Positions 13,972 through 57,911 of a stretch of DNA of 64,000 nucleotides are shown in pieces (the stretch's first letter is position 1; every line of letters starts with the position of its first letter). The DNA is from Ensifer sesbaniae (lineage in GTDB: Bacteria > Pseudomonadota > Alphaproteobacteria > Rhizobiales > Rhizobiaceae): assembly GCF_013283665.1 (NCBI RefSeq), contig NZ_JABEKU010000002.1, positions 1,300,863 through 1,364,862 of the forward strand, written 5' to 3'. Position numbers and translations under genes: made by a program. The notes under the pieces are model-generated. The model saw nothing but the letters and a program-made list of their open reading frames with translations. It searched no databases and was not told the origin of the DNA.

Positions 13972-14745
13972 CTAATGCGCGCGCCGGAAAGCGCCTGGCG
14001 CCAAACCGGTGTGCCGTCGGAAGTGGCGTCCGAACCGCGATGGATCCTCATAGCCGACGCTGAATGCCACGCCGGCAACCGACGTGTTCGTCGTGCGCAG
14101 AAGTAGCTTCGCACGTTCCATGCGCTGCTCGATGACGTATTGCAGAGGCGACTTGCCCAATGCCTTTCCGAATGCACGAACGAAATGATACCGGCTCATG
14201 GCCGCTTCGGACGCCATCGCGTGGAGGGACAACTCTCCCATGAGGTTGTCATGGATGTAGGCAATGGCCTTCCGTAGACGCCTGTCGTCGATCGAAATAG
14301 CTGGGACATGTCGCGGCGACAACACGTGGGTCAGATGAGCTGCCGCCGAAATGCTCATGGTCTGCCGATAGAGCGAGTCCGACGTCTCGGTCGTGGCGAC
14401 AGCGTTCTTCACCATCTGGACGAGCAGCGGATCGAGCCCCCCGACGAGAGGCGTGAAGTCGGGCTGGTCCCATCCTGTCTCGCGCAGCAGGTCGTCCGGG
14501 AACTCCAACGTGAGATAGGATAGGGTCTCATCGAACTCGCATATACCGCTCGCCCGCGCCGGCAGAATCCATCCCTCGCCTGCACGGAGCGGTATGCATG
14601 ACGTAATGTCGGTGCCTACAGCAAGGCGATGATGGTTCTGGTCGACAAGAAAGATGCCGACCGTCAGGTTGTGAAGCTGGAATGGCCCGCCGCCGGCCGG
14701 CAATTCCCGACTTTTCGCATGTATCTGAAGCGAGCCTCTAGCCAT
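13972..14745 (-). CDS. AraC-family transcriptional regulator
   Basis: 257 residues. The N-terminal ligand-binding part (residues 1-150, HNLTVGIFLVDQNHHRLAVG) is followed by a two-helix-turn-helix AraC domain at ~160-257 (RKAIAYIHDNLMGELSLHAM; SVAGVAFSVGYEDPSRFGRH; FRRHTGLAPGAFRR). It lies upstream of the hydrolase and SnoaL genes on the same strand and is their likely regulator. The first ~181 codons and the sequence just upstream of the start (14201-14755) are duplicated exactly at 57357-57911. This copy has the complete DNA-binding domain. Confidence 0.9.
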   Translation of the reverse strand: MARGSLQIHAKSRELPAGGGPFQLHNLTVGIFLVDQNHHRLAVGTDITSCIPLRAGEGWILPARASGICEFDETLSYLTLEFPDDLLRETGWDQPDFTPLVGGLDPLLVQMVKNAVATTETSDSLYRQTMSISAAAHLTHVLSPRHVPAISIDDRRLRKAIAYIHDNLMGELSLHAMASEAAMSRYHFVRAFGKALGKSPLQYVIEQRMERAKLLLRTTNTSVAGVAFSVGYEDPSRFGRHFRRHTGLAPGAFRRAH

Positions 14746-14755
14746 CGATATCTCC
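14201..14755. repeat. 555-bp exact direct repeat, copy 1 (contains the araC-type 5' end)
   Basis: Every base I compared is identical to 57357-57911 in the same orientation. Identity starts in the helix-turn-helix coding region and ends ten bases upstream of the ATG. Confidence 0.9.
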
Positions 14756-30639: not shown

Positions 30640-30927
30640 TGCTATCACGCCCTCGTTGCCCAACACGTCTCTACACGGAACAACGTACAGCACTTTGCGC
30701 CCCCACAAAGGAGCTTCTGACATTCTCGGCCACGACGCGGCACGCCGGTCAGCGGAGCACAAAACTGCTCCGCTAACGAGATCGCCCAATCGGATTTCGT
30801 CTTGCTCTCTCAAACAATCACGCCGCCCCCTTTCGGCCAAAAGAGGGGTGCGGCTTTCCATGTGACAACAGCGTTATCAGAATGATAAACGTCAATTCGG
30901 TTGCAATGGGGAAGCGCGGAAGAAGAG
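30640..30927. other. Upstream region of fixL
   Basis: No gene is supported. An inverted repeat TTATCA-GAA-TGATAA lies near 30865, ~50 bases before the fixL start, and may be a regulator site; it is not a FixK box. Confidence 0.45.
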
Positions 30928-32439
30928 ATGATGCTCACTGGTCGGAACGGCTTAATGCGCACCATTTCGGATTGCGTGCTCCGCCGAACTTCATCACCCG
31001 CCGAAGCTTACGGCTTTGCCGCGACCACTGTTCTGATTGCCTTTGTCCTTCGCTATTTCCTCATGGGTGTTCTGGACGATCGGGCAATCTACATTCTTTT
31101 CGTGCCCCCCGTCCTCCTTGCAGCCGCTATCGGGGGTATCGGTCCCGGAATGCTTGCTGTCATCGCTTCTATCGGTTCGGCAGTCTATCTGAGGTCACTT
31201 ACTCCTGGCGGCGTCCAGATACCTGAATTGGTCGTGTTCACCGCCGTGGGGGTTGCAATTTCCTTCTTGGGAGAATTGCTCCGACGCGCTCAACATGACC
31301 TAACAACTGCTGACGAGGCCCTGAGTACAAGAGAGGCGCACCTCCGCTCGATCCTGGACACTGTTCTCGACGCTACCATCGTCAGCGAGCAGGACGGTAC
31401 AATCGTGTCGTTCAACGCCGCGGCGGTCAGACAGTTTGGCTACGCCGAAGATGAGGTGATCGGCCAGAACCTGCGGATGCTGATGCCGCAACCCTATCGC
31501 AAGGAACACGACGGCTATCTCGAGCGGTACCTCTCTACGGGCGAGAAGCGCATTATCGGAACCGACCGTGTGGTCGTCGGTCAACGAAAGGACGGATCGA
31601 CCTTTCCCATGAAACTTGCCGTTGGGGAGATGCGATCCGGGGGTCGAAGATTTTTCACGGGTTTTGTACGCGACCTGACCGAGCGCGAAGAATCGGCCGC
31701 TCGCCTGCAAGAGGTTCAGACCGAACTGGCTCGCCTTGCCCGCCTCAACGAAATGGGCGAAATGGCGTCGACGCTCGCCCACGAATTGAACCAGCCACTC
31801 TCCGCTATAGCCAATTATGTCCACGGCTGCGGACGGCTGCTTCAGCAAGCCGAAAGCCCGCGCGACATCCAGATACGCGATGCCCTTATGGAAGCCGGCA
31901 AGCAGAGCCTGCGTGCGGGACAGATCATCAAACACTTGCGGGAATTCGTCACCAAGGGCGAGACGGATAAGTCTCCCCACAACCTGCGGCAACTGGTGGA
32001 AGAGGCCGGCGCGCTTGCATTGGTCGGGTCGCGCGAGAAAGGGGTGCGTACGGTATTCGACTTCGAATCCGGCGCAGACCAGGTCCTGGTCGACCGAATC
32101 CAGATACAGCAAGTGCTGACAAACCTCATGCGCAACGCCGTAGAGGCGATGAAAAATTCGCCCAAGAAGGAACTTTTGGTCACCATTCGACGCTTGGCAA
32201 CTACCGAGGTGATGATCGCTGTCGAAGACTCCGGCGTCGGCATACCTGAGGAAATTGCCGCCGACCTGTTTAAGCCGTTCACAACGACCAAGGCTGGCGG
32301 AATGGGTATTGGGTTGTCGATCTCCAAGCGCATCGTCGAGGCGCACGGCGGCGATCTAACCGTGTCCCCCGGGAGCTTGGGCGGCGCGCGTTTCAGCTTC
32401 ACCCTGCCGCAATACAACGAGGAAGAAAATGCCGATTGA
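30928..32439 (+). CDS. fixL: FixL oxygen-sensing haem histidine kinase
   Basis: 503 residues from ATG 30928, preceded by GGAAG. Four membrane helices lie within ~20-110 ([18 protein letters not shown]-type, [34 protein letters not shown]). The haem PAS domain is at ~130-250 ([31 protein letters not shown]). With this start the haem ligand is His194 and the phospho-acceptor in [11 protein letters not shown] is His285, both at the S. meliloti FixL positions. The kinase domain has [10 protein letters not shown] (N box) and EDSGVGIP (G1). Low oxygen activates phosphotransfer to FixJ, encoded next with an 11-base overlap. Confidence 0.95.
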
Positions 32440-33046
32440 CGACTTCACCGTGCACATTGTCGATGACGAGGAGGCGGTCAGGAAATCACTCGCGTTTATG
32501 CTGACGATGCACGGACTGGGGGTCCGCATGCACGAGTCCGCCACCGCGTTCCTTTCCGTTGCTCCAAATCTTAGGCAAGCCGTGCTTATCACCGACATGC
32601 GCATGCCCGATCTTAGCGGACTGGACCTCATTCGCCGACTGGCCGCCCTCAAGACAACGATCCCGTCGATCATGATAACTGGGCACGGGGATGTGCCGAT
32701 GGCCGTGGAAGCGATGAAAGCAGGAGCCGTCGATTTCATTGAAAAGCCCTTTGACGACAACACCATTGTTGAAGCGATCCGACGCGCCTCTGAGCGGCTG
32801 AGCGATGCGGCGTCGCCAATCGAGAGTGCTGAAGACATTCGGGCGCGCATCAGCACCCTCAGCGACCGCGAGCGTCAGGTTCTGACCGCGGTCGTCGCCG
32901 GACAGCCGAACAAGGCGATTGCGTTTGCTCTCGACATTAGCCCGCGCACCGTTGAAGTTCACCGGGCTAACGTCATGGCGAAGATGCAGGCCCGCAGCCT
33001 CCCAGAACTTGTAAGGATGTCACTCGCAGCAGAAGCCGCAGACTAA
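32429..33046 (+). CDS. fixJ: FixJ response regulator
   Basis: 205 residues. The receiver domain has the acidic pair in [14 protein letters not shown], phospho-acceptor Asp56 in [14 protein letters not shown] (Asp54 in S. meliloti, whose N-terminus is two residues shorter) and Lys in FIEKPFDD. A LuxR-type helix-turn-helix follows ([39 protein letters not shown]). Phosphorylated FixJ activates fixK and nifA promoters in S. meliloti. It is translated from GAGGAAG with the ATG inside the fixL end. Confidence 0.95.
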
Positions 33047-33059
33047 TCGCGGCATCGTC

Positions 33060-33073
33060 TTGATCTGGAACAA
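33060..33073 (+). promoter_or_regulatory. FixK/FNR-type box before the fixT-like gene
   Basis: TTGAT-CTGG-AACAA differs from TTGAT-N4-ATCAA at one position. Its centre is ~71 bases before the GTG at 33138, leaving room for a class II promoter. This fits FixK activation of fixT as known from S. meliloti. Confidence 0.55.
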
Positions 33074-33137
33074 AGCCCGGCCTGCCCGTCTGTGCGAATT
33101 TTGAGGAATTATCGCGCCTCAAGCCCACGGAACCGCA

Positions 33138-33476
33138 GTGTCCAGTCCGCCCCCTGTCGTCACGATTGCGAAAGACGAAGCCTTGCTCCGCTCTTTAGCC
33201 TTCGCGATGGAGGCGCATGGATATCAGGTCGAGCAATTCGGGTCATGGACAGCAGCAAAAGAGCGAAGCTCCGTGGCCGAAATCCTGGTCCTTGACGGCT
33301 CTCTTCCGATGATGGACATCGAAGCATGTTTGGCGCTGGCGGCCGGCAAAAGAGTCATATTGCTTGCAGATGAAGACATCGACCAGGTGAGACCTCAAAA
33401 CATTCTCGTCCTTCACAAACCTCTCTCCGGCTCTGATGTCATCGCGGCCCTGACTGCACTACGTAATAACACGTAG
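33138..33476 (+). CDS. FixT-like single receiver-domain protein
   Basis: 112 residues from GTG 33138. It is a receiver-like fold: VVTIAKDEALLRSLAFAMEA (one acidic residue of the usual pair is changed), ILVLDGSLPMMDIEAC (phospho-acceptor position kept), RVILLADEDI and VLHKPLSGSDVI (Lys kept). There is no output domain. Its place between fixJ and fixK, its size and the FixK box upstream suggest FixT, the anti-kinase that inhibits FixL. I see the receiver fold but cannot prove orthology, and a plain phosphorelay receiver remains possible. Confidence 0.7.
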   Translation: MSSPPPVVTIAKDEALLRSLAFAMEAHGYQVEQFGSWTAAKERSSVAEILVLDGSLPMMDIEACLALAAGKRVILLADEDIDQVRPQNILVLHKPLSGSDVIAALTALRNNT

Positions 33477-33478
33477 TG
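33457..33478. promoter_or_regulatory. Palindrome in the fixK promoter, candidate FixJ site
   Basis: CACTACGT-AATAAC-ACGTAGTG is a perfect 8+6+8 inverted repeat. It overlaps the stop codon of the fixT-like gene and lies 67 bases before fixK. CTACGTA resembles the reverse of the described FixJ-P motif GTAMGTAG. Confidence 0.6.
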
Positions 33479-33544
33479 GAACGACCGAATTTCGCACGCG
33501 GCCATGCTTCGTCATGATTTGACCGTCAACAAAGGGTCGGTCCC

Positions 33545-34183
33545 ATGCACGTTTCTACCGCTTCCATCGCCTCCTTCAGCTTGAACCCCGCCGGCCTTGA
33601 TGGTCGTGCATTCGCTCGGCCTCGCGCGATCTCATTCTACGAGCCAGAAACCGAAATCTACGCCCAGGGCGAACTGGCGGGTGCGCTCTATCGGATCGAA
33701 TATGGGGCTGTTCGGATCTTCCGCCTCCTCACCGACGGCCGCAGGCAGGTGGTCGCGTTTTACGTTGCCGGAGAGACCTTCGGTTTCGAAGCGCGGACCA
33801 TGCGCAGCTTTTTTGCTGAAAGCATCGTACCCACGGGTCTGACCACCATCGCCATCGAAGAAAAAGGCCGCGGTTCCTCCGAATTGATGGCGCTGGCGCT
33901 GGAGAGCATGGTGCGGGCGCAGGAACATCTTCTGGTCGTCGGAAAGCAAAGCGCGCTTGAAAAAGTGGCCGTTTTCCTCGTCGATCTTTACGAGCGTCAA
34001 GGCGAGGACGGCACAATCGACCTTTTAATGACCCGAACAGATATCGGCGACTATCTTGGCATGACGATCGAAACCGTCTCGCGGAGCTTCTCTAAGCTGC
34101 GCTGCATGGGGGTAATTCGACTCAGAAGCGCACGCGCGATCGAGGTATTGGACGTGACAAAGCTACGGCTGATGAGCGAATAG
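33545..34183 (+). CDS. fixK: FixK, CRP/FNR-family regulator
   Basis: 212 residues, the FixK length. A cyclic-nucleotide-binding-like beta-roll (EIYAQGELAGALYRIEYGAV, RRQVVAFYVAGETFGFE) and dimer helix (GKQSALEKVAVFLVDLYERQ) precede the helix-turn-helix LMTRTDIGDYLGMTIETVSR with recognition E-T-V-S-R. It lacks the N-terminal cysteine cluster of FNR, as S. meliloti FixK does, so it responds through FixLJ rather than to oxygen directly. It activates fixNOQP-type genes and fixT via TTGAT-N4-ATCAA boxes. Confidence 0.93.
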   Translation: MHVSTASIASFSLNPAGLDGRAFARPRAISFYEPETEIYAQGELAGALYRIEYGAVRIFRLLTDGRRQVVAFYVAGETFGFEARTMRSFFAESIVPTGLTTIAIEEKGRGSSELMALALESMVRAQEHLLVVGKQSALEKVAVFLVDLYERQGEDGTIDLLMTRTDIGDYLGMTIETVSRSFSKLRCMGVIRLRSARAIEVLDVTKLRLMSE

Positions 34184-39308: not shown

Positions 39309-40082
39309 TCACTCCATACGGCAGCGCCCGTTCTGGAACTGATACGGCCGGTTGCATTCCCAGCCGTTACCGGAACGATCGAGATGTGCGTTTTCAGGAA
39401 GCTTGATTTCTGAGCATGCGGATCCCTTTGCTTCAAAGCCGCGGTCACATTTCCACTTCTGCCCGTAGGTAGTGTCCGCGAAGCTTGCGTTTTGGGGAAC
39501 CTTTACGGCAACACAGGCCTGGTCCTTCACTTCAAAACCGCGGTCGCATAGCCATTCATTGCCGCTGGTTGTCAGATAGGCATGCTCAGGAACGTTCAAT
39601 GCGACGCATTTGCCACCGACAACCTGGTAACCACGTTCACATTCCCACCCCTCGCTATAGCTTGAATCCGTCAGAAACGCATTATCCGGCACCTCGATAA
39701 GGTCGCATCCAGTGTCATTTCGGCGATACCCGCGCATGCATCGCCAACGGTCGCCAGAATACGGATCAAGATAGGCGTTGGCAGGCACCTCAACGGCAAG
39801 GCACTGGTCGCCCCTTTGGGCAAAGCCGTAGTGACATTCCCAGCCCTTGCCATAGGACTCGTTTGTCAGGAAGCCATGGTCGGGAGCCGTCACGGCAACA
39901 CAGGAATCGGCTTCTTTTCTGAAGCCACGATTACACTCCCACCCTGAGCCATGGCGATTTGCTTCGGCATTCGCAGGCACCGGCAGCGTTCCTTGGCCAT
40001 AAGCGCCGGAGACGAACAGCGTTCCAGATAGAAACACGCTCATTTGAAGAGCCAACGCAACATAGGATAGCTGGCGCATCAA
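39309..40082 (-). CDS. Secreted cysteine-repeat protein
   Basis: 257 residues with a signal peptide (residues 1-29, ending VSGAYG-QG). The mature part is six tandem repeats of ~36 residues of the form V-P-x-N-A-x-L-x(5-7)-G-x-x-W-x-C-x-R-G-F-x(6-8)-C-x-A. Examples are GWECNRGFRKEADSCVAV, GWECHYGFAQRGDQCLAV, WRCMRGYRRNDTGCDLI, GWECERGYQVVGGKCVAL and WLCDRGFEVKDQACVAV. Each repeat has two Cys, probably one disulphide, as in small sushi- or EGF-like modules. A role in binding at the cell surface or in the periplasm is inference. Confidence 0.75.
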   Translation of the reverse strand: MMRQLSYVALALQMSVFLSGTLFVSGAYGQGTLPVPANAEANRHGSGWECNRGFRKEADSCVAVTAPDHGFLTNESYGKGWECHYGFAQRGDQCLAVEVPANAYLDPYSGDRWRCMRGYRRNDTGCDLIEVPDNAFLTDSSYSEGWECERGYQVVGGKCVALNVPEHAYLTTSGNEWLCDRGFEVKDQACVAVKVPQNASFADTTYGQKWKCDRGFEAKGSACSEIKLPENAHLDRSGNGWECNRPYQFQNGRCRME

Positions 40083-43156: not shown

Positions 43157-43677
43157 ATAGCATGAGAGAATGAAATAACAAGTCGAGCAACGCTTGGGCG
43201 CTCCTTGCCGAACGGAAGAGCCCCCGGCGCAGTCGGCATTCCAGCCGATACATTACGCGATCCTGGCGGCACAGAAAGAGAACGAACACTGTACCTACCC
43301 GTCATCCGGTGCTACGGCGTACCCGAGAGCCGTGGGACGCGCTAGTCAGACGAATATGCGGGGCTGGTCGCGTTGTTTGACCACGTTCTTATCGATCAGA
43401 GCTCGGTCGCCAGGAAAACATGACGGGACTTCAGAGGACTTCGGCTCTGTCGCTACGCCAATGCGCTTGAGGACTTTTCCGGTCTGGCAAAGGCGCGATT
43501 GGAAAGTCAGCGCACACTGTTTCTCTCAACCTCATTCGGCCGGGATGATCTCCTGGCGGCAGATGCGGCGGTACCTTCGTGAAGAGCACCGGTCGCGGGC
43601 GCCCGGCTCGCGCAAGATTCGATTGCCAGCACTATTGGTGTTAGAATCTTTTCCGACCGGCGGAGCCGTGTTCGGAC
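43157..43677. other. Decayed region with dispersed repeat copy C
   Basis: It contains repeat copy C (43239-43290). At ~43370-43580 a frame-broken plus-strand tail (FDHVLIDQSSVARK; LCRYANALEDFSGLAKARLE; FGRDDLLAADAAVPS) looks like the end of a lost gene I cannot identify. Confidence 0.4.
43239..43290 (+). repeat. Dispersed 'GATACATTA' repeat, copy C
   Basis: TTCCAGCCGATACATTACGC followed by GATCCTGGCGGCACAGAAAG and AGAACGAACA. One of the best-preserved copies. With copy D it flanks the cyclase gene as direct repeats ~2 kb apart. Confidence 0.6.
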
Positions 43678-45060
43678 ATGACCAGAGTAACCGCCCTACC
43701 CGATCAGATGGATTTTAACGTGGCCGCCGACGAGACCTTGCTCGAGGCGGCTCTGAGGTCCGGCGTGCCGTTTGCACATGCATGCGGCGGCCGGGCGAAA
43801 TGCTCGACCTGCCGCGTGTGGATCCTCTTTGGGCTGGAGGCCTGCCCAAATCGGAATGCCGCTGAGGCTTCGATGGCGGACCGGTTGAGGTTGACGAACG
43901 AGGTTCGGCTGGCTTGCCAGCTTAAACCGGAAGGCGACCTTCGCGTCCGGCGTCTGGTCTTGGACGAAACCGACATGATGATCACCAGCCAACTTGGCGC
44001 CTCTGCCGCGACACGGTCCGGCGAGGCCAAGCACGTTGCGGTGTTCTTCAGCGACATCGCCGATTTCACGGCACTGTCGGAAGCGCTTTCTCCATATGAC
44101 GTGATGTATCTGCTCAATCGCTATTTCGCGCAGGTCGGCGACATCATCGAGCAGAACGGCGGTTTCATCGACAATTTAATCGGTGACGGGCTAATGGCCG
44201 TATTCGGAATGAACGACCAGCCTGATGCTCCGCTGCGCGCCGTCAATGCAGCACTCCAGACGCTTGGCACGGTCGATCGTCTTAAGCCTTTCTTCGCCTC
44301 GATGTACGGCATCGATTTCGATATTCGCATCGGCCTCAACTACGGCGAGGCCGTCATCGGAACATTGGGTTTTGCACGACACGGGCGTCTGACTGCCGTC
44401 GGTGACGTGGTCAATGTGGCAAGCCGGATCGAGGCTGCCAACAAGGAGGCTGGTACACGTCTCCTGGTATCCCAGTCGCTCCGCGACGAGATCGCCGACA
44501 AGTTGGAGGTCGCCGATTTCCTACGAGTACGCCTCCGCGGCACCGGGGAGCGTACGACGCTGTTCGAGGTCGTCGGACTGAAGCCTGAAATCAACGCGGA
44601 ACTCAACGCCATACCTCGTCGCGAAACCATCCGGCAGGGTGGCAGAAGATGGGTTCGCGCTCTTGCTGAAGATGAACTTCAACCCCACGAACGACGGATT
44701 CTCGATTTCGAAGACTTCGACATCGTGGTCGTTCGCGGAGCGGAGGGTTATTGCGCCTTCAACAACGCCTGCCCGCATCTCCATCTGCCGCTGTACGAGC
44801 GCCGCAGTCCAGCCCAGACTGAGGGGCTGCAACTCCCACACACCGAAAGCACCATCACCAGCGATCTTGGCCTGGTCTGCCGATGGCATCAGAGCTGTTT
44901 TGATCTGCTCACTGGTGAAATCAGGCAGTGGGCGCAGTTGCAGGAGGACGGTACTGCGCCTGGATATGAATACGCGGGTGATATTTCGAAAAACCGCGCC
45001 AGGTTAGCCATTTATCCTTGCCGACAACGGGACGGATTCGTCTGGATCGGCCTGGAGTGA
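43678..45060 (+). CDS. Ferredoxin - class III adenylate/guanylate cyclase - Rieske fusion protein
   Basis: 460 residues in three domains. Residues ~1-95 are a [2Fe-2S] ferredoxin with Cys36, Cys42, Cys45 and Cys80 (FAHACGGRAKCSTCRVW). Residues ~115-305 are a class III cyclase with metal-binding Asp126 (VFFSDIADFT) and Asp170 (NLIGDGLMAVFG), and the conserved VGDVVNVASRIEAANK. Residues ~320-460 are a Rieske domain: C365-P-H367 (ACPHLHLPLYERR) and C401-R-W-H404 (GLVCRWHQSCFDLLTGE). All cluster ligands are present. The reading is a cytosolic cyclase whose output depends on redox state or iron-sulphur supply. Ferredoxin-cyclase fusions are known in rhizobia; the added C-terminal Rieske domain is unusual. 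No operon partner is seen, and no clear ribosome site precedes ATG 43678. Confidence 0.88.
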   Translation: MTRVTALPDQMDFNVAADETLLEAALRSGVPFAHACGGRAKCSTCRVWILFGLEACPNRNAAEASMADRLRLTNEVRLACQLKPEGDLRVRRLVLDETDMMITSQLGASAATRSGEAKHVAVFFSDIADFTALSEALSPYDVMYLLNRYFAQVGDIIEQNGGFIDNLIGDGLMAVFGMNDQPDAPLRAVNAALQTLGTVDRLKPFFASMYGIDFDIRIGLNYGEAVIGTLGFARHGRLTAVGDVVNVASRIEAANKEAGTRLLVSQSLRDEIADKLEVADFLRVRLRGTGERTTLFEVVGLKPEINAELNAIPRRETIRQGGRRWVRALAEDELQPHERRILDFEDFDIVVVRGAEGYCAFNNACPHLHLPLYERRSPAQTEGLQLPHTESTITSDLGLVCRWHQSCFDLLTGEIRQWAQLQEDGTAPGYEYAGDISKNRARLAIYPCRQRDGFVWIGLE

Positions 45061-57160: not shown

Positions 57161-57901
57161 CTACATAATCTCCTGCGACATCATCCGCGCGCTTGTTTCG
57201 TCTTCACGCGGGCCCGTCGCCCTCTCGGGGGAAATGAAAGACTTGCTGAACCCATCGCTTGAGGCCGTTCCCTGCCTAACTCGACGGCCCGACCAGCGGC
57301 GTCTCACTTGGCCAGTTTGTCGATGGGGGCCTTGGGCCGGAGCGGCCCCAAGGTCCGCCGCTTCGGACGCCATCGCGTGGAGGGACAACTCTCCCATGAG
57401 GTTGTCATGGATGTAGGCAATGGCCTTCCGTAGACGCCTGTCGTCGATCGAAATAGCTGGGACATGTCGCGGCGACAACACGTGGGTCAGATGAGCTGCC
57501 GCCGAAATGCTCATGGTCTGCCGATAGAGCGAGTCCGACGTCTCGGTCGTGGCGACAGCGTTCTTCACCATCTGGACGAGCAGCGGATCGAGCCCCCCGA
57601 CGAGAGGCGTGAAGTCGGGCTGGTCCCATCCTGTCTCGCGCAGCAGGTCGTCCGGGAACTCCAACGTGAGATAGGATAGGGTCTCATCGAACTCGCATAT
57701 ACCGCTCGCCCGCGCCGGCAGAATCCATCCCTCGCCTGCACGGAGCGGTATGCATGACGTAATGTCGGTGCCTACAGCAAGGCGATGATGGTTCTGGTCG
57801 ACAAGAAAGATGCCGACCGTCAGGTTGTGAAGCTGGAATGGCCCGCCGCCGGCCGGCAATTCCCGACTTTTCGCATGTATCTGAAGCGAGCCTCTAGCCA
57901 T
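57161..57901 (-). pseudogene. Truncated second copy of the AraC-family gene
   Basis: Starting at ATG 57901 the first ~181 codons are identical to the gene at 13972-14745. At 57357 the match ends inside the first helix-turn-helix (LSLHAMASEAA) and the frame continues as unrelated residues (DLGAAPAQGPHRQTGQVRRR). The second DNA-binding motif is missing, so this product could bind ligand and dimerise but not DNA normally. The ~30 in-frame codons upstream of 57901 are not family sequence. Confidence 0.85.
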
Positions 57902-57911
57902 CGATATCTCC
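57357..57911. repeat. 555-bp exact direct repeat, copy 2
   Basis: Identical base for base to 14201-14755 as far as I compared, same orientation, 43,156 bases away. Both edges are abrupt. Confidence 0.9.

Follow-up and report, generated by a model that had tools for sequence, protein, structure and literature searches.

Why should a nucleotide cyclase sit between two iron–sulphur domains in a single polypeptide, and what could it be listening to? The question is raised by one gene in the 64,000-nucleotide stretch of Ensifer sesbaniae DNA analysed here (the window), the product of which we call P0001. Our answer, pieced together from its domains, its relatives and the precedent of a membrane-bound cyclase, CyaC, is that P0001 is probably a redox-controlled maker of a cyclic-nucleotide signal. 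How far that answer reaches, which parts of an earlier note on the same DNA it keeps and which other readings compete with it are the subject of this article.

One frame, three domains

The P0001 gene is an uninterrupted open reading frame with an ATG start (Table 1), and the start is supported by the matches of relatives, which begin at residue 1. The earlier note had read a ferredoxin, a class III cyclase and a Rieske domain in these 460 residues. All three are found over their Pfam cut-offs, with 38.7 bits against 21 for Fer2, 73.7 against 21.9 for Guanylate_cyc and 40.9 against 20.3 for Rieske; among the NCBIfam matches listed for P0001, none of the 13 models reached its cut-off. No 19-residue window of the protein has a hydropathy of 1.6 or more, which is to say that it has no membrane segment, and hydrophobic segments are absent from all four Rieske-bearing rows tested (P0001, L024, L027 and L048). 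An AlphaFold2 prediction of P0001, made with a 19-row alignment, had a mean pLDDT of 33.

Table 1. Coordinates of the P0001 gene and its parts in the window.
Feature	Position	Strand	Remarks
Whole gene, Fer2–class III cyclase–Rieske protein P0001	43678..45060	+	Stop codon included; full length kept in relatives
Fer2 [2Fe-2S] ferredoxin domain, residues 9–84	43702..43929	+	Pfam PF00111; ISC-Fdx/adrenodoxin-like; Cys36, 42, 45, 80
Linker, residues 81–115, last Fer2 Cys to cyclase	43918..44022	+	Likely transducing element (role inferred)
Class III nucleotide cyclase catalytic domain, residues 116–293	44023..44556	+	Pfam PF00211; Asp126, Asp170, Asn246, Arg250
Codon 166, Asn, at the Lys (adenylate)/Glu (guanylate) cyclase position	44173..44175	+	Aligned residue Glu in 2w01, Lys in 6fht
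Rieske [2Fe-2S] domain, residues 318–460 (Pfam match 325–422)	44629..45057	+	Pfam PF00355; Cys365, His367, Cys401, His404

The ferredoxin is of a familiar kind. Its ligand spacing, C-x5-C-x2-C-x34-C, is that of the ISC/adrenodoxin-type [2Fe-2S] ferredoxins, and the likeness to ISC ferredoxin appears both in the NCBIfam listing and in the match of the solved ferredoxin 1i7h to residues 8–85 (4.1e-9). The four Fer2 cysteines are invariant in 58 of 58 Fer2–cyclase rows. What follows them is nearly as constant: from the LACQ motif to the metal-Asp motif of the cyclase is a distance of 38–43 residues in all 13 proteins sampled, whether two-domain, Rieske-bearing or CyaC-like. This is the behaviour expected of a linker that transmits the state of the cluster.

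A patchy family under selection

The ferredoxin–cyclase–Rieske order is present in 30 rows (29 distinct, L033 and L050 being identical and from one genome) that run from ~94% down to ~35% identity, with cluster ligands and metal Asp residues kept throughout. The ten key residues, Cys36/42/45/80, Asp126, Asp170, C365-x-H367 and C401-x2-H404, lie exactly where the earlier note had put them and are invariant in all 24 aligned proteins, P0001 included. When the P0001 gene was compared with nine relatives, dN/dS was 0.07–0.23 per domain for each of the three domains (low in nine of nine pairs), from which it follows that Fer2, cyclase and Rieske domains are all kept for function. A domain order that persists from ~94% to ~35% identity, combined with such low ratios, is not a chance fusion; judged by this conservation, P0001 is a member of a real, selected protein family.

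The distribution of that family is patchy. A genome scan gave 18 loci in Sinorhizobium/Ensifer and Mesorhizobium, all full length and 83–94% identical, its single-protein query confining it to close relatives, and a homologue of 79% identity is found on two Rhizobium plasmids. The large genome searches scored part of their candidates, so that their presence counts are lower bounds: at least 3 of 16 genomes of the genus and at least 6 of 397 genomes sampled from the order, the gene’s own genome included in both (the others in the order are 53–58% identical), and, by family, at least 3 of 87 genomes of one and at least 2 of 11 of another, a single genus each time.

Further afield, 398 genomes of the phylum were searched with a profile, and at least 25 proved to have a Fer2–cyclase match at E ≤ 1e-60. 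There were 26 matches, and only those of genomes G000 and G041 extend to the Rieske end. The remaining ones are open frames of 307–516 aa, which we filed as two-domain proteins, or of 565–616 aa in which Fer2 is preceded by some 250–300 residues and which, on length and position in the tree, we filed as CyaC-like; all three CyaC-like rows checked (L010, L077 and L079) have hydrophobic segments. A class sample of 385 genomes, searched at 1e-70, returned three matching genomes: the gene’s own, that of the two-domain protein L047 and that of the 503-aa protein L048. The closest two-domain relative of P0001 is L047, 51% identical and devoid of a Rieske domain, which tells us that the Fer2–cyclase module can work without one. 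A phage origin for the gene was considered and rejected: no phage record covers 80% of P0001, and of the eight records that match, the five listed do so in the cyclase part only.

The CDGSH form and the tree

The ferredoxin–cyclase–Rieske order that the earlier note described is kept in relatives without being the limit of the family, for two genomes add two CDGSH domains to it. L048 and its relative L081 read CDGSH–CDGSH–Fer2–cyclase–Rieske, with each family over its Pfam cut-off and both CDGSH motifs complete. This form is present in two of ten genomes of its family. Its gene has guaB (IMP dehydrogenase) and guaA (GMP synthase) as immediate neighbours, one on each side, and in the second genome it is likewise between guaB and guaA homologues, guaA there being cut by the contig end. 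The CDGSH-form genes, at L059:7808–9319 and L093:2890–4401, are alphaproteobacterial and have Asn at the purine-specifying position.

At L095:5250–7717, a two-domain Fer2–cyclase gene comes just after a gene for a CDGSH2–glutamate synthase-like protein, an arrangement that may correspond to the CDGSH fusion in split form. Such a gene is upstream in one of seven two-domain loci (L095 among L060 and L094–L099); the neighbours scanned at the others are RND efflux (L094 and L096), TatD and HAD (L099), an ABC protein (L098) and a glycosyltransferase (L060).

A tree was built on the Fer2–cyclase core of 47 of the 58 rows, leaving out near-duplicates (nine Mesorhizobium and two CyaC-like). It sets the CyaC-like proteins on one side (100/100) and gathers the 19 Rieske rows without CDGSH into one branch (99/95), to which the nearest groups are L047 and then the CDGSH form. 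A two-domain protein placed between the CDGSH form and the other Rieske rows requires two changes. A search near L047 for remains of a Rieske domain found none, and the AU test (p 0.207) does not reject a tree in which all 21 Rieske rows make up one clade. In this tree several long branches come together, and some rows, those of the CDGSH form among them, are of odd composition, so its details are unsure.

The Rieske domain and its likely potential

The earlier note had paired a low-potential ferredoxin with a high-potential Rieske cluster. The second half of that pairing does not agree with the loops of P0001, CPHLHL and CRWHQS. We take the signature of the high-potential bc1/b6f proteins to be a disulphide Cys in both loops, CTHLGC and CPCHGS, and such cysteines are absent from both loops here; Cys359 and Cys407 are near the loops, at other places than the bc1 cysteines, and are kept in 19 and 21 of 24 rows, respectively. 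A PDB profile search with the domain gave Rieske ferredoxins, mostly of oxygenases, as the best matches (8jng, 5e-8; 3gce, 5e-5), with a b6f chain among the weaker ones (0.0038). The Rieske ferredoxins of oxygenases are low-potential proteins. With these as nearest relatives and no Cys at the bc1 places, a potential near that of the Rieske ferredoxins is to be expected, and the potentials of the ferredoxin and Rieske clusters of P0001 may not be much different.

The two ligand loops of P0001 are 33 residues apart; the spacer is 28–33 residues in relatives and 17 in the CDGSH form. Every one of the 30 Rieske-bearing rows has a CxH...CxxH pair within its C-terminal 175 residues; the 28 others have none. 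This Rieske subtype was met only in the company of a cyclase when 297 genomes of the order were searched at E ≤ 1e-15, all six matches scored being cyclase fusions. A single-sequence Rieske search of 61 relatives at E ≤ 1e-4 gave three cyclase fusions and one weak match of 35%.

The cyclase and residue 166

The catalytic machinery looks complete: metal residues Asp126 and Asp170 and transition-state residues Asn246 and Arg250 are invariant in all 58 Fer2–cyclase rows. The surprise lies at position 166. The best-scoring solved chain for the cyclase domain is 2w01, which we take to be the guanylate cyclase Cya2 of Synechocystis, its database record naming it only ‘adenylate cyclase’, and 6fht is presumably a switched form of Cya2. 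P0001 has Asn at position 166, where 2w01 has Glu and the 6fht chimera has Lys. According to PMC4215837, Lys at the equivalent position is ATP-specifying by mutational work, and Glu is found in guanylate cyclases. P0001 thus has neither the residue of adenylate cyclases nor that of guanylate cyclases, and Glu occurs in none of the 58 rows.

Position 166 is Lys in 13 of 13 CyaC-like rows. The 15 two-domain rows divide into six with Lys, eight with Asp and one with Asn, and the 30 Rieske-bearing rows into 17 with Lys, eight with Asn, three with Ser and two with Leu; the CDGSH form has the Asn too, as do R. etli/R. gallicum. Variation in the soluble forms, as against uniform Lys in the CyaC-like proteins, suggests a changed product or a relaxed specificity, and catalysis in the Asn166 and Leu166 rows could be altered or weak. 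The earlier note had allowed for cAMP or cGMP as output. Asn166 makes that a real question; the note had missed this replacement of the adenine-specifying Lys.

The eight two-domain rows with Asp at the purine-specifying position (L051, L065, L066, L069, L070, L073, L074 and L075) have Ala (seven of eight) or Thr (one of eight) as second purine-site residue. From these residues, they are candidates for a non-cAMP product.

The neighbourhood

The earlier note had placed the gene next to an oxygen-sensing fix locus, and genes that are fixL/J/K-like, a label that comes from Pfam domains and from that note, are indeed in the same window, at 30901–34183. The distance is ~9.5 kb, however: the fixK-like ORF ends at 34183, and the P0001 gene starts at 43678. 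With the usual FixK-type consensus, no box with up to two mismatches was found upstream of the gene (43378–43710), and across the window there were 24 boxes against 18.4 expected. A sigma-70 promoter scan for the gene found nothing.

The ORFs of the window were also compared with 29 other loci, with flanks from less than 1 to 10 kb, some of them ending at contig ends, and with L033 and L062 belonging to one genome. The P0001 gene is in all 29, and no neighbour is in more than two. The neighbours that do recur are a PIN-toxin region, matched at 86% in L030 and at 37% in L053, and a 94-aa ORF in L061 (70%); the remaining matches are of 25–39% and belong to common families. Taken together, the 9.5-kb gap, the lack of a FixK box and the lack of a recurring neighbour give no support to a tie between P0001 and FixLJ oxygen control, and on the same grounds regulation of the gene by an operon or by fix was rejected. 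In the loci compared, no electron-transfer partner was seen to be conserved beside the family’s gene, and there was no oxygenase among 20 ORFs scanned from relatives’ loci.

Several other features of these loci deserve a record. Some 80 bp upstream of the ATG (43598–43677) are conserved in four sister loci, the DNA further upstream diverging in two; this segment is possibly the gene’s own promoter. Five Mesorhizobium loci (L031, L032, L034, L038 and L045) have upstream ORFs in common, and the same five have a downstream ORF of ~1110 aa on the same strand (9828–13163 in L031), absent from the window, in which a second cyclase-like domain and ATPase- and TPR-like parts can be made out by eye. 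The window itself holds an exact 555-bp duplication, at 14201–14755 and 57357–57911, 43 kb apart, which by eye contains most of an AraC-like regulator ORF and of which the second copy continues into different sequence. It also encodes, at 39309–40082 on the minus strand, a 257-aa protein with repeated Cys-rich units and, by eye, a signal-peptide-like start. The Pfam label of this protein, EGF_MSP1_1, is unusual for a bacterium.

How P0001 might work

We lean, with a little more confidence than doubt, toward P0001 being a soluble class III nucleotide cyclase whose own [2Fe-2S] centres control its activity through their redox state. Its ferredoxin, linker and cyclase would make up the switch that is also found in CyaC, a membrane protein in which electrons would reach the ferredoxin–cyclase module from the quinone pool by way of two b hemes. 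In P0001, the Rieske domain would replace the membrane part as a second electron centre within the same polypeptide. It would pass electrons to and from the ferredoxin cluster on one side and a cytosolic partner (or O2 or oxidants) on the other, and the linker would switch the cyclase dimer between states in accord with the redox poise of the cytosol. By the usual rule, members with Lys166 would make cAMP; those with Asn166, Ser166 or Leu166, P0001 included, may make cAMP, cGMP or both.

Much of what is described above supports this redox reading: domains over their cut-offs, invariant residues, low dN/dS, a fixed linker, the CyaC precedent, the absence of a hydrophobic segment, a Rieske subtype seen only in cyclase fusions, the CDGSH additions and the neighbour at L095. 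Against it stand L047, which has no Rieske domain, the lack of an electron-transfer partner beside the gene, and Asn166 together with the Leu166 rows, in which catalysis could be impaired or changed. With CyaC as precedent (PMC10463352), redox control appears to be the most likely function, as the earlier note had supposed; what endures of its overall interpretation is the domain composition and the likely redox control, and what finds no support is the high-potential Rieske and the tie to fix.

The clusters might, on the other hand, be labile ligands. Were O2, NO, peroxide or iron lack to destroy an exposed Rieske or ferredoxin cluster, a change in folding could switch the cyclase, and the cyclic nucleotide would report Fe–S or iron status, not redox poise. 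We think such an occupancy sensor possible, if somewhat unlikely. The ligands are conserved in both domains, yet no redox partner is linked. Two cluster types per protein, and in the CDGSH form enough ligands for four clusters, would fit a sensor of status, and CDGSH clusters are labile. Ferredoxins of the ISC/adrenodoxin type, however, are stable electron carriers. Moreover, CyaC, the nearest studied relative, answers to the redox state of quinone, according to PMC10463352. Or the Rieske domain may be an output, or a passive dimer or scaffold element, that feeds or docks an unlinked oxygenase, leaving the ferredoxin alone to gate the cyclase. Its nearest solved relatives, mostly oxygenase ferredoxin subunits, fit such a role, as do the two-domain relatives that dispense with a Rieske domain and the latitude of the loop spacer (17 to 33 residues). 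We nevertheless consider it distinctly unlikely, given that no oxygenase was among the 20 neighbour ORFs scanned, that no neighbour is conserved and that the subtype was not seen apart from a cyclase in the matches scored from those 297 genomes at E ≤ 1e-15.

Very improbable, to our minds, is that the Sinorhizobium/Ensifer branch has a degenerate, dead cyclase, its Lys166 changed to Asn or Ser, and that the protein has been kept for carrying electrons. The Lys is certainly replaced in P0001 and its sisters, but dN/dS in the cyclase is 0.08–0.12 against three close Asn-bearing sisters (L029, L046 and L030), metal and transition-state residues are kept, the same Asn is shared with R. etli/R. gallicum and the CDGSH form, and active class III cyclases without this Lys exist.

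The redox reading can be stretched into a bolder one, which as a whole we regard as unlikely. The proteins would form a family not yet described, soluble multi-[2Fe-2S] cyclases that bear two to four clusters of up to three folds (Fer2, Rieske and CDGSH) and in which intramolecular electron transfer would gate messenger synthesis. The Lys-less branches, namely P0001, R. etli/R. gallicum and, flanked by guaB and guaA, the CDGSH form, would make cGMP or another non-cAMP cyclic nucleotide and so link cytosolic redox to the guanine pool.

Why should any of this matter? Rhizobia carry dozens of class III cyclases: there are 33 PF00211 matches in the gene’s own genome, and the number in S. meliloti is put at 28 in PMC10463352. 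A soluble protein with electron centres on both sides of its cyclase would offer a direct test of the conversion of Fe–S redox state into a messenger, with neither membrane nor quinone involved. cGMP signalling is poorly mapped there, and Lys-less members, should they make cGMP, would be an added, redox-controlled source of it.

Comparison with known systems

The obvious point of reference is CyaC. Wissig et al. in 2019 reportedly described CyaC of Sinorhizobium meliloti as a 6TM diheme-B, a [2Fe-2S] and a class III adenylate cyclase part, in that order. PMC10463352 gives it diheme-B and [2Fe-2S] centres and makes it redox sensitive, with activation once quinones have oxidised it. As in P0001, Fer2 comes directly before the class III cyclase, and the linker is of similar length. 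The genome of P0001 also has a CyaC-like Fer2–cyclase of its own, L010, with hydrophobic segments before Fer2 and 36% identity to P0001 over residues 13–313 of the latter; it is on L010 and similar rows, rather than on the sequence of CyaC itself, that our comparison is based. The membrane diheme-B part is absent in P0001, which has a C-terminal Rieske domain instead. The CyaC-like proteins form a separate branch of the tree (100/100) and have Lys, whereas P0001 has Asn166.

The soluble two-domain Fer2–cyclases (~310 aa) have the same core, 37–51% identical to that of P0001, without the Rieske domain; one of them, WP_245126431.1 of Hymenobacter volaticus, is annotated only as ‘adenylate/guanylate cyclase domain-containing protein’. 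Oxygenase Rieske ferredoxins, such as those of methanesulfonate monooxygenase (8jng) and carbazole dioxygenase (3gce), resemble P0001 in having CxH/CxxH loops without the bc1 cysteines. Unlike them, P0001 has its Rieske domain fused to a cyclase and a long insert between the loops. Cya2 of Synechocystis (2w01) is the best-scoring solved cyclase, but it has Glu where P0001 has Asn166, and its regulatory domains are others than those of P0001. A search for cyclase–Rieske proteins in the literature found no relevant paper, weak evidence given that it covered the open-access literature alone, and a search of the same literature for ferredoxin, class III adenylyl cyclase and redox together found nothing. 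An Fe–S, redox-controlled class III cyclase is already known in the shape of CyaC; P0001 would be a soluble form of such an enzyme that bears a Rieske domain.
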